A stretch of DNA of 64,000 nucleotides from Labedella gwakjiensis (GTDB lineage: Bacteria > Actinomycetota > Actinomycetes > Actinomycetales > Microbacteriaceae). The notes under the pieces were generated by a model, which did not search any database, was not told the origin of the DNA, and saw only the letters and a list, made by a program, of their open reading frames with translations. The stretch spans positions 2,976,001 to 3,040,000 of the forward strand of contig NZ_PYAU01000001.1 in NCBI RefSeq assembly GCF_003014675.1, in the 5' to 3' direction. This document shows positions 21,362 through 38,040 of the stretch, piece after piece (within the stretch, counting starts at the first letter, position 1; every line of letters begins with the position of its first letter). The position numbers were made by a program, and so were the translations under genes.

Positions 21362-22140
21362 GCGCCGACCGGAACACCCCCGTGCTCGCCGCCGAGCACG
21401 TGCGCTTCTCCTACGGGCGGGGCGCCGAGGTGCTGCACGACGTGACGCTCGCCCTCGCCCCCGGCGAGACGGTGGGACTCGTGGGCGAGTCGGGCGCCGG
21501 GAAGACCTCCCTGCTGCGCCTGTTCCTCGGTCTCGAGACCCCGACCTCCGGCGCGGTCCGCTTCGACGGCCATCCGCTCGATCGTCGCGACGCCCGCGGG
21601 ATGCGGGCGTTCCGGCGGGCGGTGCAGCCCGTGTACCAGGACCCGTTCTCCTCGCTCGATCCGCGCATGCGCGTGGGCGACTCGATCGCCGAGCCGCTGC
21701 GTTCCCTCGGGCTGCCCGGAGATCGGGACACGCGGACGGCGCGCGTCGCCGAACTGCTCGCGGCCGTCGACCTGCCGGAGGATGCGGCCGAGCGGTTCCC
21801 CGACGCGTTCTCGGGCGGTCAGCGGCAGCGCATCGCGATCGCGCGGGCGCTCGCGCCCGAGCCGCGCGTGATCCTCGCCGACGAGCCCGTGAGCGCCCTC
21901 GACACGTCCGTACGCATGCAGGTCATCGAGCTGTTCCAGCGCCTCGCACGCGAGCGCGGGATCGGCATGCTCCTCGTCTCGCACGACCTCACGATCGTCT
22001 CGGCGCTCTGCCGACGCATCGCGGTGCTCGAGGGCGGCGTGCTCGTGGAGGAGGGGGAGACGCGGCGCGTGCTCACGGAGCCGGAGCACGACTACACCCG
22101 CCGACTCCTCGCGTCCGTCCCGCGGCTCCCCGCGGTGTGA
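21358..22140 (+). CDS. ABC transporter ATP-binding protein, DppF type
   Basis: A 260-residue ATPase and the last gene of the importer. It has Walker A GESGAGKT near residue 42, Q-loop VYQDPFSSLDPRMRVGDS, signature FSGGQRQR near 150, Walker B ILADEPVSALD near 171 and switch LVSHD. VSALD with Val in place of Thr/Ser after DEP is common in DppF proteins. It ends four bases from the convergent lipoprotein gene, with no visible hairpin between them. Confidence 0.92.
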   Translation: MSADRNTPVLAAEHVRFSYGRGAEVLHDVTLALAPGETVGLVGESGAGKTSLLRLFLGLETPTSGAVRFDGHPLDRRDARGMRAFRRAVQPVYQDPFSSLDPRMRVGDSIAEPLRSLGLPGDRDTRTARVAELLAAVDLPEDAAERFPDAFSGGQRQRIAIARALAPEPRVILADEPVSALDTSVRMQVIELFQRLARERGIGMLLVSHDLTIVSALCRRIAVLEGGVLVEEGETRRVLTEPEHDYTRRLLASVPRLPAV

Positions 22141-22144
22141 CCCG

Positions 22145-22672
22145 TCAGGAGCCGTCGGCGCACTCCTCCGACAGCTCGTTGATGACCCAGCGGGTTCCCG
22201 CGTCGCGTTCGAGCACCGCGGTGCCGCAATCGCCGCCATCGGTGTAGACGACGAACAGGGTCGCCGAGTCGGCCGCCTCCTCCTGCACGGTGATGTCCAC
22301 GTCTGCACCGATCCCGAGGCCCGCGTAGAGTGCCGCCGTGCTCGAGATCATCTCGTCGCAGTCGGACACGGCGACGCCACTGGCCGCGAGCTCCGCGATC
22401 ATCCGGTCGACGAGGGCGTCCGTCATGAGCGCGCACGCTGCCTCTGTGTCGGGCTCGCGGGAGGCGGTCAGCCACGCGCGGAACGCGTCGGCCGGACCGT
22501 CCGCCTCGGTTGCTTCGGGACTCGGCTCCGTCGACGGGTCCGGCGAGGATTCCGCGGCGCTCGAACTCACTGTCGGCTCGGTCGGGGAGGTCGATGTGCA
22601 GCCCGTGATGAGGAGGACGGTCGAGGCGAGAAGGGCTGTGACCACGGCCGGTCCGAGCGTCGTTTTCCGCAT
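22145..22672 (-). CDS. Hypothetical lipoprotein
   Basis: A 175-residue secreted lipoprotein: basic start, hydrophobic core, lipobox ITGC with Cys25. A low-complexity Ser/Thr/Pro/Glu linker (about residues 26-60) follows, then a folded domain of about 110 residues with DAFRAWLTASREPDTEAACAL and three further Cys residues besides the lipidated one, and DVDITVQEEAADSATLFVVY toward the end. The pattern recalls small NTF2-like or DUF4878-type extracellular domains, which is only a guess. A minus-strand TAGCGT ends six bases before the ATG, indicating a leaderless monocistronic transcript. Confidence 0.75.
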   Translation of the reverse strand: MRKTTLGPAVVTALLASTVLLITGCTSTSPTEPTVSSSAAESSPDPSTEPSPEATEADGPADAFRAWLTASREPDTEAACALMTDALVDRMIAELAASGVAVSDCDEMISSTAALYAGLGIGADVDITVQEEAADSATLFVVYTDGGDCGTAVLERDAGTRWVINELSEECADGS

Positions 22673-22678
22673 GACGTC

Positions 22679-22684
22679 ACGCTA
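22679..22684 (-). promoter_or_regulatory. -10 hexamer TAGCGT, leaderless spacing
   Basis: On the minus strand TAGCGT ends six bases before the ATG of the lipoprotein gene, and the bases between show no ribosome site. Confidence 0.5.
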
Positions 22685-22719
22685 CCAAGCGGGATCCGCC
22701 GACGCGATGCACGCGTCGA

Positions 22720-23547
22720 TCAGGGCGTGAGCACCTGCACGCCGGCGGCGGCGAGAGCGTCCTCGAGGTCGGCCGGTGGGCGGGCGTCGGTGACGAAGTA
22801 GTCGGCGCGTCCGAGCTCCGACACCTGCGCGAAGAGCCGTCGACCGAGCTTCGACGAGTCGGCGAGCACCGCGACCTTCGACGACCGCGACATCATCTCG
22901 GCCATCATCGCGGCGTCGCCGAGGTTGCTCGTGGAGAAACCGCTCGTCGCCGAGACGGCGCCGACGGAGATGAGGGCCAGGTCGCAGTGAAGGTCGACCT
23001 CCCCGCCGTTGGGGGAGGCGCCGAGTGTGACCGGCCCCGTGGTGGCCTGCGTGATCGAGCGCACGGAGCCGCCGAACACGTAGAGGTCGCGGAACACCTT
23101 GGGGGAGATCTCCGCGGGCAGCCGCAGGTTGTTCGTCGCGATCGTGAGGTCGCGGTGGTCGCGCAGATTGCGGGCGACGGCGAGGGCAGTCGTGCCGGCG
23201 TTGATGATGATGACGGAGCCGTCCTCGACGAGCCCGGCTGCTCGTTCGGCGATCGCCTCCTTCTCCTCCGGCTGCATGCGCAGACGCACGTCGAGGCCGC
23301 GATCGATCGGTGGTCGGGACGTGCCGCTGACCGCGCCTCCGTGCGTGCGCACGAGGACGCCGTCGGCGTCCAGCTGATCGAGGTCGCGTCGGATGGTGTC
23401 GATCGACACCCCGTAGCGCTCGGCCAGGATGGCGACGGTGACCTGGCCGTTCTCGGCGACGAAGTGGGCGAGGTCCGAACGGCGGCCGGCCGGGAGATGC
23501 CGGACGCGATCTCCCGAACCCTCGGCGGGGATTGTGTCCATAGGCAT
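22720..23547 (-). CDS. DeoR/GlpR family transcriptional regulator
   Basis: A 275-residue DeoR-type regulator. The N-terminal HTH spans about residues 22-72 (RRSDLAHFVAENGQVTVAIL, with the hallmark SIDTIRRDLDQLDADGVLVR and THGGAV). The C-terminal sugar-phosphate sensor domain starts near 95 with EEKEAIAERAAGLVEDGSVI and INAGTTALAVARNL, the pattern of the isomerase-like effector pocket. It is divergent from the sugar import-catabolism operon and almost certainly controls it in response to a phosphorylated intermediate. Starts at residue 1 or 3 (ATG 23541) are both possible. An inverted repeat just upstream suggests autoregulation. Confidence 0.9.
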   Translation of the reverse strand: MPMDTIPAEGSGDRVRHLPAGRRSDLAHFVAENGQVTVAILAERYGVSIDTIRRDLDQLDADGVLVRTHGGAVSGTSRPPIDRGLDVRLRMQPEEKEAIAERAAGLVEDGSVIIINAGTTALAVARNLRDHRDLTIATNNLRLPAEISPKVFRDLYVFGGSVRSITQATTGPVTLGASPNGGEVDLHCDLALISVGAVSATSGFSTSNLGDAAMMAEMMSRSSKVAVLADSSKLGRRLFAQVSELGRADYFVTDARPPADLEDALAAAGVQVLTP

Positions 23548-23552
23548 TGTCT

Positions 23553-23567
23553 AGCACACCAGGTGCT
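23553..23567. promoter_or_regulatory. Inverted repeat upstream of the DeoR gene
   Basis: AGCAC-ACCAG-GTGCT is a perfect five-base inverted repeat six bases before the DeoR start codon, a plausible autoregulatory operator. I did not find a second exact copy near the divergent promoter. Confidence 0.4.
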
Positions 23568-23679
23568 GTTTCGTGCGTCTTTTCGCGGGGCGGGTCCGTT
23601 CGGCAACGGTGGCCCGGATTCGCCGGGATAACAGCGAAGTAACGATGGCGACGACGGACGAAAGGCCTCCATTTCCCTC

Positions 23680-23709
23680 TTGACGAGGAGATATCGACGG
23701 GCGTACTCT
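23680..23709 (+). promoter_or_regulatory. Putative promoter of the sugar import-catabolism operon
   Basis: TTGACG (23680-23685) and TACTCT (23704-23709) are 18 bases apart, a good sigma-70-type pair, in a locally A-rich stretch. About 70 bases of leader follow to the ATG at 23779, preceded by GGAGA. Confidence 0.6.
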
Positions 23710-23778
23710 CCAGAAAGCCGCATAAATCAGCAAAGAACAGCGCAATGCGGCAGATGACAGAATCCAGAATGGAGAATC

Positions 23779-25071
23779 ATGAGCAACGGAGCTCACGGTC
23801 GCAGGCGTACCCTCAGGGTCGTCGGCATGACGGCCGCAGCTGTGACCGTCTTCACGGTCGCCGGGTGTAGCGCAGGCGGCGACGGCGGAGACGCGGGTGG
23901 CGACGTCACCCTGGAATTCGCGCAGTGGTGGGAGCCGGAGCTCCCGGACGGCGCCTTCCGCGAACTGATGGACCAGTTCGAGGAGGAGAACCCCGGCATC
24001 ACGGTGGAGCTCCTCAGCGGACCGTACGCGTCCACGAAGGAGCAGCTCTTCGCCGGGGCCGCGGCCGGAACGATGTCCGACGTCGTCGGTCTCGACGGAG
24101 CATGGGTGAGCGACTTCGCCGACCAGGGCGCGATCACCGACCTCACCGCCCTCATGGACGAGGAGGGCTACGACGACAGCCAGCTCGCCAGCCAGATCCA
24201 GGTCGACGGCTCCACCTACATGATCCCGGTCGTGAACTTCGTCTACCCGATGTTCACGAACGACTCGATCCTCGCGGACGCCGGCGTCGACGCTCCGCCG
24301 ACGACGCGCGACGAGTTCGCCGACGCGGCCGCCGCGATCTCGGACCTCGGTGACGACACGAGCGGCTGGGTGCTCCCTCTGTCGCTCGAGGCGCCGAACG
24401 GCATCCAGAACGACGTCATGTCGTGGGTGTGGGCGAGCGGCGGCAGCATGCTCGACGGCGGCCAGCCGGACGTCACGAACAGCGACGTCACCGAGGCCGT
24501 CGAGTACATCAAGGGCATGTGGGACGACGGAAGCATCGCTCCCGGTTCCTTCACGATGAAGGAGCAGGACAAGGTCGAGGAGTTCACGAACGGTCGCGTC
24601 GGAATGATGATCGACTCGCTCGCGCACATCAACCTCATCCGCGAGTCCAACCCGGACCTCGACTTCAGCATCTCGGCGATCCCCGCCGAGGAGGGCTACG
24701 AGGGCGAGCGCGGCATCCCTTACGCCTCGTGGGGCATCGGCGTCTCCGACGCGTCGGAGCACAAGGCCGAGGCTCTCAAGCTCGTCGAGTTCCTCATGAG
24801 CGAGGAGACGAACAGCGAACTGTCCACGATCGCGAACGCCTTCCCCGGCAACACGGAGTCGGTGCCCGAGTTCGTGAAGGACGACGACCTCTACGCGGAG
24901 GCGTTCGAGATCTACCAGGCCGGTTACCCGGCCAACGAGTTCACCGGACTCCCCGTCGCCGAGCAGCTCATGCGCACGTTCGACGAGCAGATGCAGTTGA
25001 TGCTCAACGGCGATCAGACGGTCGACGAGATGCTCGAGACGACCCAGGAGACCTGGCTCTCCGAGTTCTGA
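23779..25071 (+). CDS. Sugar ABC transporter substrate-binding lipoprotein (SBP family 1)
   Basis: A 430-residue family 1 binding protein. The signal peptide ends in lipobox VAGC (Cys30). The mature protein starts with VTLEFAQWWEPELPDGAF and has LMDQFEEENPGITVELLSGP, the family NPGI landmark, then YMIPVVNFVYPMFTNDSIL and late LVEFLMSEETNSELSTIANA. It presents a sugar or sugar derivative to the two downstream permeases. GGAGA lies before the ATG. It is followed by a strong hairpin before the permease genes, a common way of making more binding protein than permease. No ATPase is encoded in the operon. Confidence 0.92.
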   Translation: MSNGAHGRRRTLRVVGMTAAAVTVFTVAGCSAGGDGGDAGGDVTLEFAQWWEPELPDGAFRELMDQFEEENPGITVELLSGPYASTKEQLFAGAAAGTMSDVVGLDGAWVSDFADQGAITDLTALMDEEGYDDSQLASQIQVDGSTYMIPVVNFVYPMFTNDSILADAGVDAPPTTRDEFADAAAAISDLGDDTSGWVLPLSLEAPNGIQNDVMSWVWASGGSMLDGGQPDVTNSDVTEAVEYIKGMWDDGSIAPGSFTMKEQDKVEEFTNGRVGMMIDSLAHINLIRESNPDLDFSISAIPAEEGYEGERGIPYASWGIGVSDASEHKAEALKLVEFLMSEETNSELSTIANAFPGNTESVPEFVKDDDLYAEAFEIYQAGYPANEFTGLPVAEQLMRTFDEQMQLMLNGDQTVDEMLETTQETWLSEF

Positions 25072-25090
25072 TCCGACCGTTTTCCAACCA

Positions 25091-25133
25091 GGTGCCGCCC
25101 CTTCCCGCCCCCCTCACGGGGAGGGGCGGCACC
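25091..25133 (+). terminator. Intercistronic hairpin (attenuator or mRNA stabiliser)
   Basis: Arms 25091-25106 and 25118-25133 pair over 16 bases with one mismatch (left arm begins GGTGCCGCCCC, right arm ends GGGGCGGCACC). No T run follows, so it is more likely a partial terminator or 3-prime stabiliser between binding protein and permease genes than a full stop. Confidence 0.65.
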
Positions 25134-25153
25134 GCCTCTCCAGAGGAGTCCGC

Positions 25154-26065
25154 GTGATCAACGCGATCGTCGAGCCTCTCGACGCCCCGCCGCGCAAGAA
25201 GCGGCGCTCGAGCTCTCAGGGCCGGCTCGAACCCTACGGCTTCATCGCCCCCACGGTGGCCCTCCTGTTCGTCCTGATGGTCGTGCCGATCGTCCTCGTC
25301 GTCGGCTACTCCTTCATGGACAACGTCATCATGAAGAGGAACCCCGAGTTCGTCGGGCTCGACAACTTCGTCGAGATCCTCACGGACGGCGTCTTCCTCA
25401 CCGCCATCGGCAACACCCTCTTCTTCACGATCGTGAGCGTCGTCGCCCACCTCGTGATCGGTCTCGCCTTCGCGATGCTGCTCAACAGCACCGTCATCAG
25501 CCGGGCGACCCGCGGCATCTTCCGCGTGATCTACATCCTGCCGTGGCTCTTCACGGCCGCCGTGATCGCGGTCCTCTGGCGGATGCTGCTCAACCCGAAC
25601 GGCGTCGTCAACTACCTGCTCCAGTCCGACGTCGAATGGCTCTCGTCGCCCGACCTCGCTCTCGGCGCCGTCACCTTCATCAACATCTGGGCCGGCTACC
25701 CCTTCTTCATGATCAGCCTGCTCGCGGGACTCCAGGGGATCCCCGGAGACCTGTACGAGGCCGCGACCGTCGACGGTGCGAGCCCGTGGCAGCGATTCGT
25801 GAGCGTCACGCTCCCGCAGCTCAAGCCGATCATCATCAGCATGTCGCTGCTCGACCTCATCTGGACGTCGCAGCAGTTCGCCCTCATCTGGATGACGACG
25901 GGCGGAGGCCCGATCAACGTCACCGAGATGCTCAGCACCTACACATACAAGCTCGCCTTCAGCCGGTACGAGTTCTCGCTCGCCTCCACGAGCGCCGTGC
26001 TCATCCTGCTGCTGTCGATGGTGCTCGCCTTCTTCTACGTCCGACACCAGCGCGCGAGGGACTGA
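25154..26065 (+). CDS. Sugar ABC transporter permease, MalF type
   Basis: A 303-residue permease with a short basic tail, a first helix from about residue 33 (YGFIAPTVALLFVLMVVPIV), family landmark SFMDNVIMKRNPEFVGLDNF, and the coupling EAA loop DLYEAATVDGASPWQRFVSV with TLPQLKPI. About six membrane helices are visible. The GTG start has GAGGAG seven bases upstream. It pairs with the next gene, whose start lies four bases after this stop. Confidence 0.92.
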   Translation: MINAIVEPLDAPPRKKRRSSSQGRLEPYGFIAPTVALLFVLMVVPIVLVVGYSFMDNVIMKRNPEFVGLDNFVEILTDGVFLTAIGNTLFFTIVSVVAHLVIGLAFAMLLNSTVISRATRGIFRVIYILPWLFTAAVIAVLWRMLLNPNGVVNYLLQSDVEWLSSPDLALGAVTFINIWAGYPFFMISLLAGLQGIPGDLYEAATVDGASPWQRFVSVTLPQLKPIIISMSLLDLIWTSQQFALIWMTTGGGPINVTEMLSTYTYKLAFSRYEFSLASTSAVLILLLSMVLAFFYVRHQRARD

Positions 26066-26068
26066 CCC

Positions 26069-26983
26069 ATGACCACCATGCTGCACCAGACGGTCGAACC
26101 CGAGACCGCACCGCGGAACGACTTCGGCGGAACCGAGCGCAAGCGCGCGAAGGCCCGTCGCCGACTCCTCGTCAAGATCGGCGTGCTCGCCGCCCTCATC
26201 ACGGGCGCCTTCTTCGCCGGAGCCCCCGTGCTCTGGATGCTCGCGAGCTCGTTCAAGTCGAACACCGAGATCTTCGCGTCGCCTCCCGTGCTCGTCACCG
26301 AGAACTTCTCGTTCGACGCGTACGTGACGATCCTCACCGACCCGGAGAAGGTGCGCTTCTTCATCAACAGCTACGTCATCTCGCTCGCGGTGACGGCGCT
26401 CACCCTCGTGGTGGCGATCCTCGCGGCCTACGCCTTCAGCCGGTTCGAGTTCCGGTTCAAGCGCCCGCTCAACATCCTCATCGTGAGCGTGCAGGCCGTG
26501 CCGCCCATCACGCTCCTCATCCCGTACTTCGGGCTCATGGTGACGCTCGGGCTCTACAACACCTACCCGGGGCTCATCCTCACCTACATGGTGTTCACGC
26601 TGCCGTACGCGATCATCATGATGACCGGGTACTTCAACACGCTGCCCCGTGAGCTCGACGAGGCCGTGCGCGTGGACGGAGCCGGCTCCATGACCGCCCT
26701 CTGGCGGATCCTCGTCCCGATCTCGGTGCCCGGCATCGTGTCCGTCGGCGTCTACACGTTCATGATCGCGTGGAACGAGTACCTCTTCGCCCTCACCCTC
26801 ACGAAGACGCAGGACATGCGCACGGTGCCCATCGGCATCCAGCTGCTCATGGGCCAGCACTCGTACGAGTGGAACGAAATGATGGCGATGAGCATCCTCG
26901 GGTCGATCCCCGTCCTCGTCCTCTTCCTCTTCTTCCAGCGCTACTTCATCGGCGGGCTGACCTCCGGGTCGGTCAAGAGCTGA
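26069..26983 (+). CDS. Sugar ABC transporter permease, MalG type
   Basis: A 304-residue permease. A long charged N-terminus (KRAKARRRLLVK) precedes helix 1 (about residues 38-58). It then shows LWMLASSFKSNTEIFASPPV, AAYAFSRFEFRFKRPLNILI, and the coupling loop PRELDEAVRVDGAGSMTALW with RILVPISVPG. The ending FFQRYFIGGLTSGSVKS is the usual MalG-type C-terminus. An ATPase must come from elsewhere in the genome, probably a shared MsmK-type protein. Confidence 0.92.
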   Translation: MTTMLHQTVEPETAPRNDFGGTERKRAKARRRLLVKIGVLAALITGAFFAGAPVLWMLASSFKSNTEIFASPPVLVTENFSFDAYVTILTDPEKVRFFINSYVISLAVTALTLVVAILAAYAFSRFEFRFKRPLNILIVSVQAVPPITLLIPYFGLMVTLGLYNTYPGLILTYMVFTLPYAIIMMTGYFNTLPRELDEAVRVDGAGSMTALWRILVPISVPGIVSVGVYTFMIAWNEYLFALTLTKTQDMRTVPIGIQLLMGQHSYEWNEMMAMSILGSIPVLVLFLFFQRYFIGGLTSGSVKS

Positions 26984-27030
26984 CGCGCGCCCAGACCACG
27001 ACCATCCCAATAACAAGGAGAACCCCGAAA

Positions 27031-27891
27031 GTGCTCATCACCGGCAAAGAACTGCTGTCCGTCGCGAACGACAACGACTTCGCGGTCCCCGCCTTCAACA
27101 TCAGCGACTACGCGATGTTCAACGGCATCATCGACATCAGCGAGAAGAAGAACGCGCCGCTCATCGTCGCGATCCACCCGGACGAGGTGAGCCACATCGG
27201 CGCGGAGTCGGTCCTCGCGATGCGTGCCAGAGCGCACCGTTCGAGCGTGCCCGTCGTCATCCACTGGGACCACGGTGGAACGTACGAGCAGATCCTCTCC
27301 GCGATCCAGTTCGGTTTCACCTCGGTGATGATCGACGCATCGATGCTTCCCTTCGACGACAACGTGGCGATCACGAAGCGCGTCGTGGACGCGGCCCACG
27401 CCGTCGGCCTCTCCGTCGAGGGCGAGCTCGGCACCATCGGCAAGACCGACAACGAGGCGGAGGACGGGGCTGCGGACATCATCTACACCGTGCCGGAGGA
27501 CGCCGTTCGCTTCGTCGAGCAGACGGGCGTCGACAGCCTCGCGATCGCCATCGGAACCTCGCACGGCCTCTATCCGGCGAGCATGAAGCCGGAGCTGCGC
27601 CTCGACCTCCTCAAGGAGATCAAGGCAGCCGTCCCGATCCCGCTCGTGCTGCACGGCGGATCGAACAACCCGGACGACGAGATCGGCCGCTCGGTGAAGC
27701 TCGGCGTCAACAAGATCAACATCTCGAGCGACATCAAGGCCGCCTACCATCAGAAGATGCGCGAGGTCCTCGCGGACTCCTCGCTGCGCGAGCCGAACTC
27801 GATCCAGCCCCCCTGCATCGAGGCCATGCAGGTCGTGGCGGCGCACAAGATCGACCTGTTCGACGCCGCCGGCAAAGCGTCGGTGTACTAG
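27031..27891 (+). CDS. Class II fructose/tagatose-bisphosphate aldolase family protein
   Basis: A 286-residue class II aldolase, the length of the tagatose/ketose-bisphosphate branch. VIHWDHGGTYE near residue 82 holds the first zinc His and catalytic Asp, VEGELGTIGK near 131 the conserved Glu, IAIGTSHGLYP near 171 the next zinc His, and LVLHGGSNNPDD near 207 the third. VNKINISSDIK near 228 is the phosphate-binding strand. It should split a ketose 1,6-bisphosphate (or a related phosphorylated acid) into DHAP and an aldehyde. The GTG start has AAGGAG ten bases upstream. It sits between sugar permeases and a sugar kinase, so it is probably the last step of the pathway. Confidence 0.9.
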   Translation: MLITGKELLSVANDNDFAVPAFNISDYAMFNGIIDISEKKNAPLIVAIHPDEVSHIGAESVLAMRARAHRSSVPVVIHWDHGGTYEQILSAIQFGFTSVMIDASMLPFDDNVAITKRVVDAAHAVGLSVEGELGTIGKTDNEAEDGAADIIYTVPEDAVRFVEQTGVDSLAIAIGTSHGLYPASMKPELRLDLLKEIKAAVPIPLVLHGGSNNPDDEIGRSVKLGVNKINISSDIKAAYHQKMREVLADSSLREPNSIQPPCIEAMQVVAAHKIDLFDAAGKASVY

Positions 27892-27920
27892 ATCGACCAC
27901 TCAAGGGAGAGGGGCGCGAC

Positions 27921-29165
27921 GTGGCGCACCGTTTGGTTCTCGGCCTCGGCGGCACCGTCGACTACGAGATCGACTGGGACGGACGGGTCGTCGGGGCCCT
28001 GGCCGAGCAGTACGGCATCACGCCTGACGAGCTCGACCGGACGATCCCCGTCGTCGACGAGCGGTCCCTGCTCGTGACCCTTCTCGCGTTCGTCCGCGAC
28101 GGTGCCGGGGGAGAGCGGTTCGTCGCATCCCCCGACATCGTCGCGGCCTACGCCGATCGCTTCGCCACCCGGGTCACCCTGGGCGGCACGTGCGTGCGCG
28201 CGGCGATCGCCCTTCGCTCGCTCGGTCACGACAGCCTCGTGCACCTCGTGAGCATCGACGACCACGTGCGCCGCCTGCTGCCGGAGGGCGTCGACTACAT
28301 CTGCAGTGCGACGTCCGACTCGACGGATCCGCACCTCATCGTGCAGTTCCCCTCGGGTCCGGCGGTCATCGGCGGCCCCGTGCCCCTCGACGCGCCGTTC
28401 CCGAACCGTGTGATCTACACGAACGACGAGCCGAACAGGAACCTCTTCATCAGCGACGAACTCGACGGGGTGCTGGCAGGAGCCGACGTCTTCCTCGTGT
28501 CCGGCTTCAACACCATCCAGGACCCGTCGCTGCTGCGGCAGCGTGTGGACCGCGTCCGTTCGGCGATCCGGTCGGCGGCCGACGACACGATCGTCGTCTA
28601 CGAGGACGCCGGCTACCACGAACCCGCGTTCAGCCACGTGGTCCGCGACGCGATCGCGCCGGACGTGACCGTGTACAGCCTCAACGAGGAGGAGTTCCTC
28701 GCGTACGTGGGGCGCGACGTCGACCTGCTCGACGCGACGGATGTCCTCGCGGCGCTCGACGGTCTCCTCGATCTCATCCCGTCCCCGTGCCTCGTCGTGC
28801 ACACGAAGCACTGGGCCCTCTCGGCCGGTCCGCGCGCCGCGCGTTTCGCCGACGCCGTGCTCGGTGGAGTCGTCATGGCGAGCACGCGCTACCTCGTGGG
28901 CGACGGTCAGACCGCCGACGACTACGCGGCCACCGCTGCGCTGCCGCGCACCGAGGCGGGCTCCCGCTTCGCCGCCGAGATCGAGAGCCTCTCCCGCGGA
29001 GCCATCCACTGCCACGCGGCGTTCGTCCTCGAGGTCGACCGACCGACGACGATCGGATTGGGCGATACCTTCATCGGAGGCATCATCGCGGTGCTCGCGG
29101 ATGAGCGGGGGATCCCCTCCGTCACCGCACCCGAGACCCGATCCCAACCCGTGGAGACCATGTGA
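27921..29165 (+). CDS. ADP-dependent phosphofructokinase/glucokinase family sugar kinase
   Basis: A 414-residue ribokinase-fold protein that I place in the ADP-dependent PFK/GK family, not ordinary PfkB. LGGTCVRAAIALRSLGHDSL near residue 91 matches the GGQAGI region of archaeal enzymes. SGFNTIQ near 194, then YEDAGYHE and VTVYSLNEEEFLAYV (an NxxE motif) near 255 follow. LVVHTKHWAL with VMASTRYLVG matches the HT--Y---T/ATRA region near 293-325, and TIGLGDTFIGG near 377 carries the catalytic GxGD Asp. Such enzymes phosphorylate glucose or fructose-6-phosphate using ADP. Here it probably makes the bisphosphate cut by the adjacent aldolase. The last codons overlap the isomerase start. Confidence 0.85.
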   Translation: MAHRLVLGLGGTVDYEIDWDGRVVGALAEQYGITPDELDRTIPVVDERSLLVTLLAFVRDGAGGERFVASPDIVAAYADRFATRVTLGGTCVRAAIALRSLGHDSLVHLVSIDDHVRRLLPEGVDYICSATSDSTDPHLIVQFPSGPAVIGGPVPLDAPFPNRVIYTNDEPNRNLFISDELDGVLAGADVFLVSGFNTIQDPSLLRQRVDRVRSAIRSAADDTIVVYEDAGYHEPAFSHVVRDAIAPDVTVYSLNEEEFLAYVGRDVDLLDATDVLAALDGLLDLIPSPCLVVHTKHWALSAGPRAARFADAVLGGVVMASTRYLVGDGQTADDYAATAALPRTEAGSRFAAEIESLSRGAIHCHAAFVLEVDRPTTIGLGDTFIGGIIAVLADERGIPSVTAPETRSQPVETM

Positions 29166-30169
29166 ACCCCGTCGTCCTGCCGTCGAACCGACCGCCCGAG
29201 CGCTTCTATCGCGGCGGTCGACGCATCACCGACCTCCGTGGGGAGGACCCGGCGGGTGAACGCGAGCCCGAGGACTGGGTGGCGTCGGTCACGACGGTCG
29301 CGGGCGAGGAACGCACGGGTCTGACCACGCTCCCCGACGGAAGGCTGCTGCGGGACGCGATAGCCGACGACCCGTTCGCCTGGCTCGGCGCCGAGCACGT
29401 CGCGCGCTTCGGCGTGGATCCGATGCTGCTCGTGAAGCTCCTCGACGCGGGGGAGCGCCTCCCGGTGCACGCGCACCCGCACGGCACGTTCGCCCACAAG
29501 CACCTCGGGCGCGCGCACGGGAAGGCGGAGGCCTGGGTGATCCTCGACGGCGGGGAGGTGCACCTCGGCCTCCGCCGGGACCTGACCACGGGCGAGCTCG
29601 ACGATCTCCTGCGGCGACAGGACAGCGCGGCCCTCCTCGACGCGATGCACCGGATCGACGTGCGGAGGGGCGATGTCGTCTACGTGCCGCCCGGTGTGCT
29701 CCACGCGATCGGCGGCGGCGTCTTCCTCGCCGAGCTGCAGGAGCCGGAGGACCTGTCGATCCTCGTGGAGTGGCAGGGATTCGCCCTCGACGGCGAGAGC
29801 GACGGGCACCTGGGGCTCGGCTTCGAGCTCGCCCTGAGCGCCGTCGAACGCCGGGCGCGTTCCGCCGAGGAGATCGGTGCCCTCGTGCACCGTGCGCTCG
29901 GGGACACTCCGCTGCTCGCCGCGGAGGCCGACGAGTACTTCCGGCTCGAGTGGGTGGTGGCCGACGACGGCGCGCCGATCTCGGTCGCCGCAGGCTTCGC
30001 CGTGGTCCTCGTGCTCGAAGGGGCGCTCGAGCTCGCCGTCACCGGGGGTGTGCTCGGCGTGACCGGGGGACGGACGCTCGTCGTGCCGCACGCGGCCGGT
30101 CCCCTCGCCGTCCGAGGCGCCGGCGAGCTGCTCGTGTGCCGCCCGCCGACAGCGGGATCTCCCGCGTGA
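29162..30169 (+). CDS. Mannose-6-phosphate isomerase class I-like (ManA type) protein
   Basis: A 335-residue cupin-fold isomerase. Zinc ligands are seen in ERLPVHAHPHGTFAHKHLG near residue 100 and HGKAEAWVIL near 119 (Glu), and in VPPGVLHAIGGGVFLAELQE near 177 (His). The C-terminal second cupin is shorter than in E. coli ManA, giving a total length below the usual 390. It should interconvert an aldose 6-phosphate and its ketose form; the exact sugar is open. The GTG start lies within the kinase stop (ATGTGA), so the two are co-translated. It is the last gene of the DeoR-linked operon. Confidence 0.85.
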   Translation: MNPVVLPSNRPPERFYRGGRRITDLRGEDPAGEREPEDWVASVTTVAGEERTGLTTLPDGRLLRDAIADDPFAWLGAEHVARFGVDPMLLVKLLDAGERLPVHAHPHGTFAHKHLGRAHGKAEAWVILDGGEVHLGLRRDLTTGELDDLLRRQDSAALLDAMHRIDVRRGDVVYVPPGVLHAIGGGVFLAELQEPEDLSILVEWQGFALDGESDGHLGLGFELALSAVERRARSAEEIGALVHRALGDTPLLAAEADEYFRLEWVVADDGAPISVAAGFAVVLVLEGALELAVTGGVLGVTGGRTLVVPHAAGPLAVRGAGELLVCRPPTAGSPA

Positions 30170-33079: not shown

Positions 33080-34759
33080 CTAGGCGAGGAGTCCCGCCGG
33101 CGCGATCCACACGGTGCTCTCGCGCGGCAGTGCCGAACCCTCCACGGCGCCGAGGACGACGCCCGCCGCATCCGCCCCGAGGTCGAACGGTTCCGTACCG
33201 AAGTTCGTCACCACGTGCCAGCCGTTGGGACGGGCGAAGCGCAGCACGTCCGGCCGTCCGGTCTCGATCCACTCGAGCGACTCGTCGGACTGCAGCACGT
33301 GCCGCACGCGCAGGGCCTCGCGGTACAGCGACAGCGTGGATGTCGGGTCGCCGGCCTCGACGTCCACGGCGAAGTCCGCGAACCAGGCCGGTTGCGGCAG
33401 ATGAGCGTCCCCGGTGCCGAACCCGAAGGACGAACCGGACGCCGTCCACGGCAGGGGCACGCGGCACCCGTCGCGGCCGAGGCCGTCGAACTCGCCGCCG
33501 CGGAAGAATGCGGGGTCCTGTCTCTGCTCTGGCGTGATCTCCGCGACCTCCTGCAGGCCGAGCTCCTCGCCCTGGTAGAGGTAGGCGCTGCCCGGAAGCC
33601 CGAGAAGCAGGAGGGTGGCGGCCCGAGCCCGACGCAGACCCTGTTCGCGATCGTTCCCCTCCGCCGGTCCGCCCGCGGCGACCCACTCGGTGCCCTGCTT
33701 GACGGGTCGCCCGTCGAGCGCCGGGAGTCCGTACCGCGTGGCGTGCCGGGTGACGTCGTGGTTCGACAGCACCCACGTCGTCGACGACCCGGAGGCCTCC
33801 GACTGCGCGAGGTTGTCGGCGATGATCGTGCGGAACTGGGTCGCGTCGAAGTCGGCGACGAGCAGGTCGAAGTTGAACGCCTGCCCGAGCCCCTCGGCCG
33901 ACGCGTACTTCGCGCGACGCTCCGGTGTGCTGACCCACGCCTCGGCGACCGCGGTGCGGGGCGGGTCGTACTCGTTGAAGACCCGACGCCACTCGGCGTA
34001 GACCTCGTGCACGTCGTCGCGGTCGAGGATCGGGTGCTTGCCGTCCTGGGGGATCAGGTCGAGCTCGGCGCGGCTCGGTAGGGGCTCGGTGAGGTCCTTC
34101 GTGAGCATGTGCGCGACGTCGATGCGGAAGCCGTCGACGCCCCGGTCCGACCAGAACCGGAGGGTCGTGAGGAAGTCCTCGCGCACCTCCGGGTGGTCCC
34201 AGTTGAGGTCGGGCTGCTCCGTGGCGAAGTTGTGGAAGTACCACTGACCGTCCGCCACGCGCTCCCATGCGGGCCCGCCGAACACCGACTCCCAGTCGGT
34301 CGGCGGCTGCTCGCCGTTCTCGCCCGTGCCCTCGCGGAAGATGTACCGCTCGCGCGCGGCCGAACCGCGCCCGGCGGCCAGCGCCTCCTGGAACCACGCG
34401 TGAAGGTTCGACGTGTGGTTCGGCACGATGTCGACGACCACGCGGATGCCGCGGCCGTGGAGGGCCTCGACCATGCGGTCGAAATCCTCGAGTGTGCCGA
34501 GGCGCGGGTCGACGTTCCGGTAGTCGGCGACGTCGTAGCCGCCGTCGGCGAGGGCGGACGGGTAGAACGGGCTGAGCCACACGGCGTCGATCCCGAGATC
34601 GGCGAGGTAGTCGACGCGGGAGACGATGCCGGGCACGTCGCCGATCCCGTCGCCGTTCGCGTCCGCGAAGCTGCGCGGGTAGATCTGGTAGACCGCGGCC
34701 TGGCGCCACCATGCGGCGTCGGTGGTGCTGCGGGTCTCCGTGAGGAGTGCGTCGGTCAT
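33080..34759 (-). CDS. GH13 alpha-glucosidase (oligo-1,6-glucosidase type)
   Basis: A 559-residue GH13 enzyme without signal peptide, so cytoplasmic. Conserved regions are all present: VVVDIVPNHTS near residue 113; DGFRIDVAH with the nucleophile Asp214; VAEAWV with the acid Glu273; and SNHDVTRH with Asp335 as transition-state stabiliser. WWRQAAVYQIYPRSFADANG opens the barrel and QGEELGL follows the active site. The set marks the subfamily acting on maltose, isomaltose or sucrose-like oligosaccharides. It is the last gene of the operon, separated from the permease by a strong hairpin. ATG 34759 has AAAGG upstream. Confidence 0.93.
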   Translation of the reverse strand: MTDALLTETRSTTDAAWWRQAAVYQIYPRSFADANGDGIGDVPGIVSRVDYLADLGIDAVWLSPFYPSALADGGYDVADYRNVDPRLGTLEDFDRMVEALHGRGIRVVVDIVPNHTSNLHAWFQEALAAGRGSAARERYIFREGTGENGEQPPTDWESVFGGPAWERVADGQWYFHNFATEQPDLNWDHPEVREDFLTTLRFWSDRGVDGFRIDVAHMLTKDLTEPLPSRAELDLIPQDGKHPILDRDDVHEVYAEWRRVFNEYDPPRTAVAEAWVSTPERRAKYASAEGLGQAFNFDLLVADFDATQFRTIIADNLAQSEASGSSTTWVLSNHDVTRHATRYGLPALDGRPVKQGTEWVAAGGPAEGNDREQGLRRARAATLLLLGLPGSAYLYQGEELGLQEVAEITPEQRQDPAFFRGGEFDGLGRDGCRVPLPWTASGSSFGFGTGDAHLPQPAWFADFAVDVEAGDPTSTLSLYREALRVRHVLQSDESLEWIETGRPDVLRFARPNGWHVVTNFGTEPFDLGADAAGVVLGAVEGSALPRESTVWIAPAGLLA

Positions 34760-34840
34760 GGAGGAGGAACCCTTTCTGTGGTGCGGGAGGTGTGGGGCGG
34801 GTGGTCGACGGTGTCGTGGGGAGGTGCCAGGGGTCATGGT

Positions 34841-34871
34841 GACGGCCGCCGCGGGAGCCGCGGCGGCCGTC
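34841..34871 (-). terminator. Intercistronic hairpin between permease and GH13 genes
   Basis: A perfect 14-base stem (34841-34854 with 34858-34871) around a three-base loop lies 21 bases after the MalG-type stop. There is no T run, so it probably attenuates or protects mRNA between permease and glucosidase. Confidence 0.7.
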
Positions 34872-34892
34872 GAATCGCGGTGGTGGTGCGGC

Positions 34893-35828
34893 TCAGCCCT
34901 TGAGGGCGCCCTGCGTGACACCCTCCATCACCCAGCGCTGCGCGAACAGGTAGGCGATGATGGCCGGCGCCATCGCCATCAGGTACGAGGCGAAGGCGAC
35001 GTTGTAGTCGCTCGAGAACTGCGTCTGGAACAGGTTCTGTCTCACGGGGAGCGTCTGCATGTCGGCGTCGGAGATGATCAGCGACGGCATCATGAAGTCG
35101 TTCCACGCGTAGAGGAACGCGAAGATTCCGACCGTGGCGCTCATCGGGGCGAGGAGCGGGAAGATGAGCTTCCAGAACGTCTGCCACGTGCTCGCGCCGT
35201 CGATGCGCGCGCTCTCCTCGAGCTCCATGGGGATGGAGCGCAGGAAGGCCGTGAAGAGGAGCACGCTGAAGCTGAGCTGGAACATCGTGGCCAGGATGAT
35301 CACGCCGAGCGGGTTGTCGAGCCCGAAGCGGCCGGTCAGCTGGATCTGCGGCAGCGCCACGACGGGGAACGGGATGAACATCGCGCCGAGCAGGTAGAAG
35401 AACGAGTAGCGGAAGAGCCGTCGGTCCCAGTTCCGCACGATCGCGTAGGACGCGAACGACGCGAGGACGATCGTGGCCAGCACCGTTCCGGCGGTCACGA
35501 TGAACGACATCGCGAAGCCGACGGGGAACTTCGTGAGCTCCCACGCCTGCACGAAGCCGTCGATGCTGAACGGGGCCGGCAGTGAGAACGCGTTGCCGTC
35601 GACGGCCTGTCCACTCGTCTTGAACGCCATCGAGATGGTCACGTAGAGCGGCAGGATCACGGTGACGGCGCACAGCAGCAGGATGACCGTGGTCGACCAG
35701 CTGCCCGACTTCCGTCCCTTGATCGGGCGGGAGGATCCGCCCGTCGTGATGGAGCGGGTGGATCCGGTGTCCGCACCGGACGTCGACTGCTTGGCGGTGG
35801 TCTTCGGGTCGAGAGGGATCGTGGACAT
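34893..35828 (-). CDS. Sugar ABC transporter permease, MalG type
   Basis: A 311-residue permease. About 40 polar residues precede helix 1 (STTVILLLCAVTVILPLYVT). VTISMAFKTSGQAVDGNAFS, FASYAIVRNWDRRLFRYSFF and the coupling loop PMELEESARIDGASTWQTFW with LIFPLLAPM follow, and the end is FAQRWVMEGVTQGALKG. It forms the channel with the MalF-type permease, whose stop it overlaps by one base. Together with the GH13 enzyme the likely cargo is an alpha-glucoside. Confidence 0.92.
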   Translation of the reverse strand: MSTIPLDPKTTAKQSTSGADTGSTRSITTGGSSRPIKGRKSGSWSTTVILLLCAVTVILPLYVTISMAFKTSGQAVDGNAFSLPAPFSIDGFVQAWELTKFPVGFAMSFIVTAGTVLATIVLASFASYAIVRNWDRRLFRYSFFYLLGAMFIPFPVVALPQIQLTGRFGLDNPLGVIILATMFQLSFSVLLFTAFLRSIPMELEESARIDGASTWQTFWKLIFPLLAPMSATVGIFAFLYAWNDFMMPSLIISDADMQTLPVRQNLFQTQFSSDYNVAFASYLMAMAPAIIAYLFAQRWVMEGVTQGALKG

Positions 35829-36745
35829 CAGATGTTGTTCCTTCCGCGCGTCACCGAGAGCTGCAGGACGGCGATGATGATCGTGATGATGAAGAACAGC
35901 GTCGCCGTCGCCATCTGGTAGGCGTAGTCGCCCGTCTGGAAGCCGCGGATGATGGTCATCGAGATGCTTCGAGTGGAGGTGCCGGGGCCGCCGCCGGTGA
36001 GGCCGACGATGATGTCGTAGGCGTTCAGGTAGTTCTTGAACCCCAGGATCACGTTGATGACCACGTAGCCGGCGACGAGCGGGAGCGTGATGCGCGCCAG
36101 CTGCTGCCTCTTGTTCGCCCCGTCGATCGATGCCGCCTCGTAGACGTCACCGGGGATCGAGAGGAGCCCGGCGATGTAGATGAGGAGTGTTCCCGGGATC
36201 GACTGCCAGGCGGTGACGATCACGATGCCGAGCCAGGCGAGGTCGGGGTTCGCGAGGATGCTCGTCTCGAGGAACGGGATGCCGAGCGCCCCGCCCGCGG
36301 CGGGCAGCGAGTTCTGGAACAGGAACTGGAAGACGTAGGCGATGATGATGCCCGAGACGACCATGGGGATCACGAAGATCGCCCGCAGGCCCATCTTGAA
36401 GCGGATCTTCGCCGTGAGTCCCACCGCGAGGAGGAACGCCAGGACGTTCACGAGGATCACCGTCACGAGGGCGAAGCCGAACGTGAAGAGGAAGCTCGTG
36501 AGGATCGCCGGATCGCTGAACGCCGCGATGTAGTTCGTGAAGCCGGTGAACTCCCACACGCCGATCCCGATGGAGTCGGTGAAGCTGAAGAAGATCCCGA
36601 TGATCCCGGGAACCGTGATCGCCAGCGTGAACAGGATCACCGCGGGGAAGAGGAAGAGGTAGTAGATCGGCTCGACGCGCTTCATGCTGCGGCTCTTGCG
36701 GGCGGCGGGGGCTCCGCCGGTGACGATGTTCTGTGTCGCGCTCAT
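35828..36745 (-). CDS. Sugar ABC transporter permease, MalF type
   Basis: A 305-residue permease: basic tail, helix 1 at LFLFPAVILFTLAITVPGII (about residues 30-50), FSFTDSIGIGVWEFTGFTNY, and the coupling loop GDVYEAASIDGANKRQQLAR with ITLPLVAGY near 205. About six helices. Its start lies within the stop of the binding-protein gene and its stop overlaps the MalG-type start, so the three are strictly coupled. Confidence 0.92.
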   Translation of the reverse strand: MSATQNIVTGGAPAARKSRSMKRVEPIYYLFLFPAVILFTLAITVPGIIGIFFSFTDSIGIGVWEFTGFTNYIAAFSDPAILTSFLFTFGFALVTVILVNVLAFLLAVGLTAKIRFKMGLRAIFVIPMVVSGIIIAYVFQFLFQNSLPAAGGALGIPFLETSILANPDLAWLGIVIVTAWQSIPGTLLIYIAGLLSIPGDVYEAASIDGANKRQQLARITLPLVAGYVVINVILGFKNYLNAYDIIVGLTGGGPGTSTRSISMTIIRGFQTGDYAYQMATATLFFIITIIIAVLQLSVTRGRNNI

Positions 36746-38040
36746 CAGTTCCCCTCCTCGCTCGAGACGGCCGGCTGGCGGAACGCGATGCGCGCCCAGT
36801 CGGCGTCCATGGTGCGCAGCAGGTTCTCGGCGTTCGTGCCGAGGACGAGCGACTGCGCGTAGTTCTCCGTGGGGATGGCCCGCGGGTTCAGGATGCCGGG
36901 ACCCTGGTAGAACGCGCCGGCGTCGTAGTAGGGGATCATCCCCTCGACGCGGGGGTCGCTCGGAGCCTTGCCGTCCTTCGTCGGCACGAAACCGAGCTGG
37001 GACTCGTTGTACGCCTGGATGATGTCGGGCTGGAAGAGGTAGTCCATGAAGTCGAAGGCGCCCTCCTTGTTGCTGGCGTCCTCCGGGATCATCGTGACGA
37101 GGTCCATGTTGACGCGGACCTTGAGGTCGTCCGGGTCCTCGGTCATCGGGAGCGGGAACGTGCCGAGTTCGGCGTCGGGGTTGGTCAGCTCGATCTGGCT
37201 GAGAGCCCACGGTCCCTGCATGTACATCGCTGCCTCACCGTTGGCGAAGGCGACGTTGCCCACGTCGTAGGCGCGGCTTCCGGCGTTCGGCTGCGTGTAC
37301 TCGCTCGCGAGCAGCTGCATCTTCTCGACAGGCTCGAGGAAGTCCTTCTCGAAGCTCACCGGGGAGTCGGGGCCCACCTCGGTGCCCTGCTCCGCCATCT
37401 GGTCGTAGAACGACTGGACGTCCATCGAGCTGCCGATGGCGTAGTCGAACCAGCCCTGGTTGACCGTCCACGCGTCGGCGAACGTGCCGTAGAACGGGGC
37501 GATGTCGGCGGCCTTGAGGGTGTCTCCCACCTCGAGGAGTTCACTCCACGTCGTGGGGACCTCGAGGTCGTTCTCCTCGAAGATCGTCTTGTTGTAGATG
37601 ACGGACGCGGCCATCACCGAGTACGGGAGGGCCGTGGTGCGACCGGGGCACGTGCCGAACTGGTCGAGGAGCGGCTGGAACTCGTCGCGGATTGTCGACG
37701 CGGCATCCGTCTCGGAGAGGTCCTCGAGCACGCAGCGCTGCACGAAGCGGGAGACCTCGTGGTTGTAGTTGGCGAGCATGAGGTCCGGCGGATTGCCTCG
37801 CACGAAGCTCGCGGAGATCGGGTCGACCCCCGACGTGTCCATCACCACGTTGTACTCGTCCTGCGACGCGTTGTAGTCGGCGACCGTCTGCTCCATGAAC
37901 GTGATCGCCTCACGCTTGTTGAACGTGAAGTGGACGGTCTCGCGACCGTCCGCGGAGCAGCCGGTCAACACCGCCCCGACCAGGATCACGCCGAGAGCTC
38001 CGGCTGTCGCGCGCAGGGCGCGCCTCAATCGTCTAGACAT
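36745..38040 (-). CDS. Sugar ABC transporter substrate-binding lipoprotein (SBP family 1)
   Basis: A 431-residue lipoprotein with lipobox LTGC (Cys28). The mature part shows TVADYNASQDEYNVVMDTSG, YSVMAASVIYNKTIFEENDL with VPTTWSELLEV, and NGEAAMYMQGPWALSQI, all typical of family 1 sugar binders. GGAAGGA lies seven bases before the ATG. First gene of the alpha-glucoside-type operon, behind a promoter that carries a palindrome. As in the other sugar locus, no ATPase gene is present. Confidence 0.92.
   Translation of the reverse strand: MSRRLRRALRATAGALGVILVGAVLTGCSADGRETVHFTFNKREAITFMEQTVADYNASQDEYNVVMDTSGVDPISASFVRGNPPDLMLANYNHEVSRFVQRCVLEDLSETDAASTIRDEFQPLLDQFGTCPGRTTALPYSVMAASVIYNKTIFEENDLEVPTTWSELLEVGDTLKAADIAPFYGTFADAWTVNQGWFDYAIGSSMDVQSFYDQMAEQGTEVGPDSPVSFEKDFLEPVEKMQLLASEYTQPNAGSRAYDVGNVAFANGEAAMYMQGPWALSQIELTNPDAELGTFPLPMTEDPDDLKVRVNMDLVTMIPEDASNKEGAFDFMDYLFQPDIIQAYNESQLGFVPTKDGKAPSDPRVEGMIPYYDAGAFYQGPGILNPRAIPTENYAQSLVLGTNAENLLRTMDADWARIAFRQPAVSSEEGN

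Follow-up and report, generated by a model that had tools for sequence, protein, structure and literature searches.

A PF04587 kinase and its partner class II aldolase in an actinobacterial sugar operon suggest a catabolic route through a ketose-1-phosphate

A stretch of 64,000 nucleotides from Labedella gwakjiensis (contig NZ_PYAU01000001.1, positions 2,976,001 to 3,040,000; hereafter the window), whose genome comprises 3.84 Mb in one contig, was found to carry a sugar operon encoding an ATP-binding cassette (ABC) importer, a class II aldolase, a kinase of family PF04587 and a ManA-like isomerase. We consider it moderately probable that this operon serves to break down a simple free hexose by way of a ketose-1-phosphate, the sugar being most likely of the D-mannose/D-fructose type. 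In the route that we infer, the importer would take up the sugar; an aldose, if that is what is imported, would be converted into the ketose by the ManA-like isomerase or, in some relatives, by a free-sugar isomerase of unrelated family; and the PF04587 kinase would phosphorylate the free ketose at C1, presumably with ADP as donor. The aldolase would then split the ketose-1-phosphate into dihydroxyacetone phosphate (DHAP) and an unphosphorylated aldehyde (glyceraldehyde), to be phosphorylated by a triose kinase such as DhaK, with the DeoR-family regulator presumably controlling the operon. This reading builds on the gene families, the fold of the kinase, its linkage to the aldolase, the varying isomerases and the changed residues of the active sites, all taken from sequences and predicted structures. 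Papers are cited by PubMed Central (PMC) identifier, from excerpts of their text.

A preliminary description of this DNA had recognized a bacterial kinase of the ADP_PFK_GK family and a class II aldolase in a DeoR-flanked sugar operon, which Pfam matches and gene layout bear out. The kinase matched PF04587 with an E-value of 3.1e-18 and 66.1 bits (cut-off 27); its PfkB score (PF00294; 7.1e-4, 19.4 bits) lay under the cut-off of 25.8, and membership of PfkB was rejected because PF04587 scored far better. A single-sequence search of the Protein Data Bank (PDB) gave an unrelated hydrolase as its sole, weak match (E=0.069). With profile A1, built from 39 of 42 kinases (L004, L012 and L018 left out), ADP-dependent kinases came out at the top (5k27, 2.1e-15; 1ua4, 5.3e-14; mouse ADPGK 5ccf, 1.4e-12). 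The predicted structure (pLDDT 93.5) retrieved ADP-dependent gluco- or phosphofructokinases at all of Foldseek ranks 1-22 (E 1.5e-20 to 1.8e-15), followed at rank 23 by an adenosine kinase (2.6e-9). The motifs previously named are all present (G88-G89, NEEE 255-258, VHT 293-295, ASTRY 320-324 and GLGD 379-382). The GLGD Asp is retained in 39/39 aligned relatives and, as D382, in 69 of the 71 rows of the wider alignment used for the kinase residue counts, the gaps belonging to the contig-cut L012 and the remnant L018. Two of the outcomes that the preliminary description had named as refuting its kinase assignment, a better PfkB score and a lost GLGD Asp, thus did not occur. Within NXXE, N255 is kept in 67/71 rows (Ser in 3, one gap) and E258 in 70/71. 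As regards HXE, Glu228 is kept in 70/71 rows and no row has His at 226, a residue that the divergent KIN2 paralogues described below carry in 7/7. Membership of PF04587 stands despite this partial loss of HXE in the subfamily, profile and fold being decisive. The operon kinase is the only PF04587 match in the host genome, and ADP-dependent kinases have already been reported in bacteria (PMC7948494).

Seventy-six loci, each holding a kinase-type match, were compared: the window, 18 from named genomes, 24 from the same family, 30 from 28 genomes of the order and three of a Chloroflexi set. In 73 of them a class II aldolase gene adjoins a kinase gene of the same orientation, the exceptions being L018 (where a ManA-like gene adjoins what is left of the kinase), L071 and L155 (a 3.5-kb contig). 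The binding protein and both permeases were also matched in 70/76 loci and DeoR in 67/76, an RpiR-type gene standing in its place in L013-L015. The operon arrangement, recurring in other genera and in Chloroflexi, is more than chance. The distances of kinase and aldolase correlate as well (Spearman 0.67 over 67 loci, the pairs not being independent).

The preliminary description had also proposed an order of steps: an isomerase acting on an aldose phosphate, a kinase of the ADP-dependent phosphofructokinase (PFK) type, and a ketose-bisphosphate aldolase. The family names fit that sequence, but it is probably wrong, and we regard it as quite improbable in view of the kinase pocket. Published residue numbers were transferred through HMMER alignments by our own mapping, 6c8z not being among the aligned structures, and PMC7948494 served as the yardstick for pocket residues. 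According to it, Glu90 occurs in glucokinases and bifunctional enzymes, whereas Lys179, Asn181 and Arg212 occur in PFKs and bifunctional enzymes, with His at 181 in a glucokinase; mutants of the PFK-specific residues show a Km for fructose-6-phosphate (F6P) raised about 200- to 1000-fold (PMC7948494). In the operon kinase, Glu65 is the equivalent of Glu90, His138 stands at the place of Asn181, Asp169 at that of Arg212, and Arg163 is the equivalent of Arg206, each in 70/71 rows (exception, the L018 remnant). At the place of Lys179, loosely mapped to position 136, two residues before His138, Asp was found in 50/71 rows, Lys in none and Arg once (L069). Sugar-site Gln116 is replaced by Thr/Ser and Gln244 by Asn. 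The residues confined to PFKs and bifunctional enzymes are thus replaced, two of them by glucokinase-type residues, and the pocket appears to be neither that of a standard glucokinase nor that of a standard PFK. Since the contacts to the phosphate of F6P are lost, an unphosphorylated sugar is the likelier substrate. The proposed order also leaves the operon without a first-step kinase, which would most simply be the PF04587 kinase itself.

The aldolase points the same way. Its best NCBIfam match is PRK08185, 'hypothetical protein' (399 bits, cut-off 405). Residues were counted over 69 rows from 68 loci (the window entered twice); eight of the 76 loci have no full-length aldolase row at at least 59% identity (L018, L071, L129, L133, L137, L140, L153, L155). 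H81, H178 and H208, which we take to be the zinc ligands, and D80, presumably the catalytic Asp, are kept in 69/69 rows, and Gly179, Ser211, Asn230 and Ser233 are also kept. In the Giardia fructose bisphosphate (FBP) aldolase, FBP is bound by Arg259 and Arg280, which form a network with Asp255 and Asp278 (PMC6692403); mapped through 1rv8, these four residues correspond here to Lys236, Asn256, Ser232 and Glu254. Arg was found at the Arg280 place in 0/69 rows, a loss that speaks against a bisphosphate substrate, and Ser49 of five FBP-aldolase-type PDB sequences is His in 69/69. A second Arg of the Arg280 segment, at position 263, is kept in 3/69 rows (L146, L148, L152). The site seems to fit a substrate without a 6-phosphate, although which half keeps the phosphate is not proven by it. 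A role in housekeeping glycolysis was rejected, the host genome having its own class IIA FBP aldolase and canonical ManA.

The label of ManA-type isomerase was upheld by fold, the predicted structure (pLDDT 91.5) retrieving mannose-6-phosphate isomerases at Foldseek ranks 1-17, but is weak by sequence (TIGR00218, 48.7 bits, under the cut-off of 116.2; MPI_cupin_dom, 25 bits, cut-off 27; PF20511, E=0.087). Alignment A3, comprising all 18 ManA-like proteins from the first 43 loci, shows by our own mapping that the metal and catalytic positions of phosphomannose isomerase (PMI) are kept in 18/18, and that the place of PMI Arg274 is Leu/Ile in 18/18, the roles of these positions being assumed. A conserved linkage of kinase, aldolase and isomerase, which the preliminary description had suggested surveying, holds for the first two genes; the isomerase varies. 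A ManA-like gene was seen in 32/76 loci, of which 27, the window and L018 among them, have it close by on the same strand, and the other 5 have it in divergent orientation on the far side of the regulator. An isomerase of family PF07221 occurs in three loci (L016, L144, L147), a PF07385 isomerase in one (L154, E=1.4e-86; PDB match 3kmh) and a distant ManA-like gene in one (L153). The best NCBIfam matches of the swapped isomerases are D-mannose isomerase for PF07221 (430.5 bits, equivalog cut-off 600) and D-lyxose/D-mannose isomerase for PF07385 (242.8 bits, cut-off 350), names that serve as leads since they fall under the cut-offs. These swaps for families that work on free sugars, and the lack of an isomerase within the stretch read in other relatives, likewise speak against the order that starts with an aldose phosphate. 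D-lyxose isomerases interconvert free D-lyxose and D-xylulose as well as D-mannose and D-fructose (PMC6746899). What the isomerases have in common points to D-mannose/D-fructose and less strongly to D-lyxose/D-xylulose and D-talose/D-tagatose. Many loci could take up the ketose directly, given the number in which no isomerase was seen. A YihS-like protein encoded elsewhere in the genome was rejected as an explanation for the isomerase-free loci of the family, being found in 2 of the 30 kinase-bearing family genomes, on contigs other than that of the kinase.

These same enzymes could be read differently, with the kinase as an ADP-dependent hexokinase of the gluco/mannokinase type yielding a hexose-6-phosphate, which the ManA-like enzyme would convert to F6P; the aldolase would then use the bisphosphate made by the cell's PFK, or cleave F6P to dihydroxyacetone (DHA) and glyceraldehyde-3-phosphate, with DhaK taking the DHA. 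Bacillus ManA is weak on free sugars and very strong on mannose-6-phosphate (PMC4718643), and because of this preference the ManA name alone is poor support for a free-sugar isomerase. The glucokinase-type Glu65, His138 and Asp169, the closest NCBIfam name of the kinase (ADP-dependent glucokinase, 32.8 bits, though far under the cut-off of 387), the loss of Lys182 in the aldolase and the DhaK and DhaL genes of three loci also agree with such a hexokinase. It is nevertheless unlikely in our judgement, because glycolysis takes in a hexose-6-phosphate with no need of a special aldolase, whereas here the aldolase is the constant partner; in addition, four loci take their isomerase from free-sugar families, sugar-site Gln116 and Gln244 are replaced, and the ManA-like proteins have Leu/Ile at the Arg274 place. 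What favours the ketose-1-phosphate is the combination of four features: the aldolase as constant partner, the loss of the FBP-binding Arg, isomerases of free-sugar type and neighbouring DhaK genes.

As to the last of these, L146, L148 and L152 carry DhaK and DhaL genes downstream on the same strand, which in L148 and L152 are preceded by DUF4432 and ManA-like genes; Pfam was run, and a DhaM-like protein looked at, for L146 alone. Dihydroxyacetone-type kinases can take glyceraldehyde, and such an enzyme would be useful if an unphosphorylated triose were released. The host genome has one DhaK gene, about 0.4 Mb from the operon. DhaK was found in 29/30 genomes with the kinase against 35/50 systematically picked others (p=0.0035), a difference given no weight because small control genomes lack DhaK.

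Several observations weigh against a free ketose phosphorylated at C1. No isomerase was seen in 39/76 loci within the stretch read, five of which end near the kinase. The three DhaK loci come from one family (genera g370, g370 and g386), perhaps reflecting one event, and are exactly the three with aldolase Arg263. The host has a 1-phosphofructokinase-like gene (252.7 bits, cut-off 292), so fructose-1-phosphate could be used otherwise. In the aldolase, Lys182, part of the FBP site in the Giardia enzyme (PMC6692403), is Pro in 69/69 rows, the DHAP-phosphate site is not fully kept, and Lys236 occupies the place of Giardia Arg259. In the kinase, besides the HXE His missing from 71/71 rows, Asn32 is mostly Gly. 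Moreover, Arg93 (70/71 rows) stands at the place of Ile119, which in the reference enzyme lies at most 5 Å from F6P (PMC7948494), and could bind an acidic group. Arg93 and aldolase Lys236 could provide alternative phosphate contacts for the bisphosphate order, and Arg93 leaves an acidic sugar possible as the kinase substrate.

One such sugar would be sulfofructose, in a route of the sulfoglycolytic Embden-Meyerhof-Parnas (sulfo-EMP) type leading from sulfoquinovose through sulfofructose and sulfofructose-1-phosphate to DHAP and sulfolactaldehyde. Besides Arg93, it has in its favour that its steps follow the same logic and include a class II aldolase, SqiA (PMC9594981); the PF07221 isomerase of L016 is close to YihS (2rgk, 1.6e-94), and the sulfoquinovosyl-binding SmoF is sixth among the distant PDB matches of the binding protein (7nbz, 3.5e-15). 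We nevertheless hold this route to be very improbable, since the best NCBIfam match of the PF07221 protein is D-mannose isomerase, L154 has a D-lyxose-type isomerase, and no sulfoquinovosidase-type or aldehyde-dehydrogenase protein was found among 17 window proteins scanned with Pfam, the rest of the genome and the other loci not being searched.

A second pair, formed by a divergent PF04587 kinase (KIN2) and a class II aldolase (ALD2), was found in five loci of family f86 (L129:7692-10606, L137:8167-11069, L142, L149, L151). A short-chain dehydrogenase/reductase (SDR) gene follows the pair in 5/5, a divergent sulfatase gene lies near it in 4/5, and both pairs share one operon in L142, L149 and L151. 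KIN2 has Asn at the His138 place and ALD2 has Arg at the Arg280 place, each in 5/5; two further KIN2-like genes (L071, L155) have His at the His138 place. Within this single clade, then, changes in the kinase site go along with changes in the aldolase site. At L071:14730-15632 the KIN2-like gene is split into two pieces by an intervening stop, and it has no neighbouring aldolase. A divergent PF04587 kinase (26%) from the Chloroflexi search, at L153:1880-15668, is accompanied by a class II aldolase and the distant ManA-like gene, with a ribose-type ABC importer, a GPI-cupin isomerase, a HUMPS-type protein, a ROK kinase, a DeoC/LacD aldolase and a ribulose-phosphate-epimerase-type gene as neighbours.

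Among named genomes, the closest kinase relatives are in Agromyces (64%), Cellulomonas, Rathayibacter and other actinobacteria, and three Chloroflexi metagenome-assembled genomes carry relatives at 41-42%. PF04587 was found in 30/398 genomes of the family, 30/297 of the order, 1/396 drawn from the phylum (the host's own) and 4/301 of the phylum of the Chloroflexi locus L014, and a plasmid search for the kinase gave no match. In G108, of the same genus, the flanks and the ManA-like gene are present and window positions 22134-29150 have no counterpart; two other genomes of the genus gave no PF04587 match. The part from DeoR to the kinase behaves as a unit gained or lost. In Microbacterium rhizomatis (L018:9686-11556), a kinase piece and an intact-looking ManA-like gene remain, importer and aldolase being absent; the genes on either side are those found around the complete operon in M. 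timonense (L007), which marks an instance of operon loss.

The ManA-like protein ranges more widely, being matched in 85/398 family genomes, that is, in 16/30 with the kinase against 69/368 without it (Fisher p=5.9e-5, shared ancestry ignored). A DUF4432 gene lies between kinase and ManA-like genes in L008, L011, L148 and L152; L003 has such a gene downstream of the kinase, at the contig end. In 20 ManA-like neighbourhoods from PF04587-free genomes, a PfkB kinase, DeoC/LacD aldolases, a Gfo/Idh oxidoreductase, DUF4432, FGGY kinases and another class II aldolase recur; thus, combinations of isomerase, kinase and aldolase drawn from other families also occur in these PF04587-free surroundings. 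ManA-like relatives at L076:6245-12406 and L080:13488-15818, beside PfkB, DeoC/LacD, FGGY, Gfo/Idh and DUF4432 genes, mark other uncharacterised sugar clusters of the same logic.

The features of the operon are collected in Table 1. The start of the aldolase was set at a GTG inside a longer open reading frame (26770-27891), and the kinase and ManA-like genes overlap by 4 bases. The best NCBIfam match of permease 2 is the glucose permease GlcU (160 bits, below the cut-off of 340), and the nearest PDB sequences of the binding protein are of the maltose-binding type (8art, 6.7e-20), too distant for its ligand to be named. In the intergenic regions between divergent regulator and binding-protein genes, the 6-mer ACAGCA occurs in 43/63 and the 7-mer AACAGCA in 36/63, the highest counts in one shuffled control set being 21 and 12, respectively; AACAGCA-type words are possibly DeoR operators. 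A scan for sigma-70 promoters and terminators gave nothing above shuffles. Elsewhere in the window, a GH13-type alpha-amylase-family gene beside two ABC permease genes (33080-37210, minus strand) forms a separate glucoside cluster.

Table 1. Features of the operon and its control region, in window coordinates
Feature	Position	Strand	Basis
DeoR-family regulator, divergent from operon	22720-23547	-	PF00455 3.8e-39, PF08220 1.5e-15
Intergenic control region, putative operator role	23548-23778		TTGACG at 23680; imperfect ~10-nt repeats 23728-23760
Solute-binding protein of ABC importer	23779-25071	+	PF01547 1.4e-37
ABC permease 1	25154-26065	+	PF00528 3.3e-17
ABC permease 2	26069-26983	+	PF00528 7.3e-18
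Class II aldolase, predicted ketose-1-phosphate aldolase	27031-27891	+	PF01116 9.6e-90
PF04587 kinase, predicted free-ketose 1-kinase	27921-29165	+	Pfam, profile search, fold
ManA-like isomerase, predicted to act on free aldose	29162-30169	+	Fold; weak sequence matches

Work on ADP-dependent sugar kinases has centred on archaea and on mammalian ADPGK. A C1-kinase for free ketoses would add a specificity, or a new substrate class, to these enzymes, would mean ADP-driven sugar activation in ordinary mesophilic bacteria through a dedicated ADP-dependent catabolic route, and would offer a kinase-aldolase pair of use in rare-sugar chemistry. More tentatively, a fructolysis-like route could extend over several actinobacterial families and Chloroflexi, with an ADP-dependent ketohexokinase, a metal-dependent ketose-1-phosphate aldolase and interchangeable free-sugar isomerases, which we regard as possible rather than probable. 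Among open-licence PMC texts, which leave most subscription papers outside, no paper was found that deals with this operon, with a role of the actinobacterial members or with a ketose-1-kinase belonging to the family. Sulfo-EMP and sulfo-EMP2 already follow this logic of steps (PMC9594981, PMC12890257, PMC8873060); the new part would be a PF04587 kinase in the C1-kinase role, together with a plain sugar.

With the PF04587 family the operon kinase shares sequence profile, fold, the GXGD Asp, NXXE and the Arg206 equivalent, but it differs in the absent HXE His, the mostly Gly residue at Asn32, other sugar-site residues, a length of about 395-414 residues and its place in a bacterial operon with an aldolase. 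Sulfo-EMP2 (SqvD, SqiK, SqiA) likewise combines an isomerase, a C1-kinase and a class II aldolase, whereas its kinase is of the PfkA family and its sugar is sulfonated (PMC9594981, PMC12890257). The class II aldolase YdjI of the Escherichia coli ydj cluster is related to that of the operon (6ofu, 3e-65, with profile A2, built from 35 of 41 aldolases, leaving out L004, L012, L053, L055, L056 and L057). YdjI acts on ketose-1-phosphates and is encoded beside a PfkB kinase and a DeoR-type regulator; the ydj cluster differs from the operon in this kinase family and in its other genes. Animal fructolysis proceeds through ketohexokinase, aldolase B and triokinase. The proposed route would share with it the conversion of a free ketose into a ketose-1-phosphate, the cleavage to DHAP and an aldehyde and the subsequent triose kinase step, but with a PF04587 kinase and a class II zinc aldolase instead of the animal enzymes.

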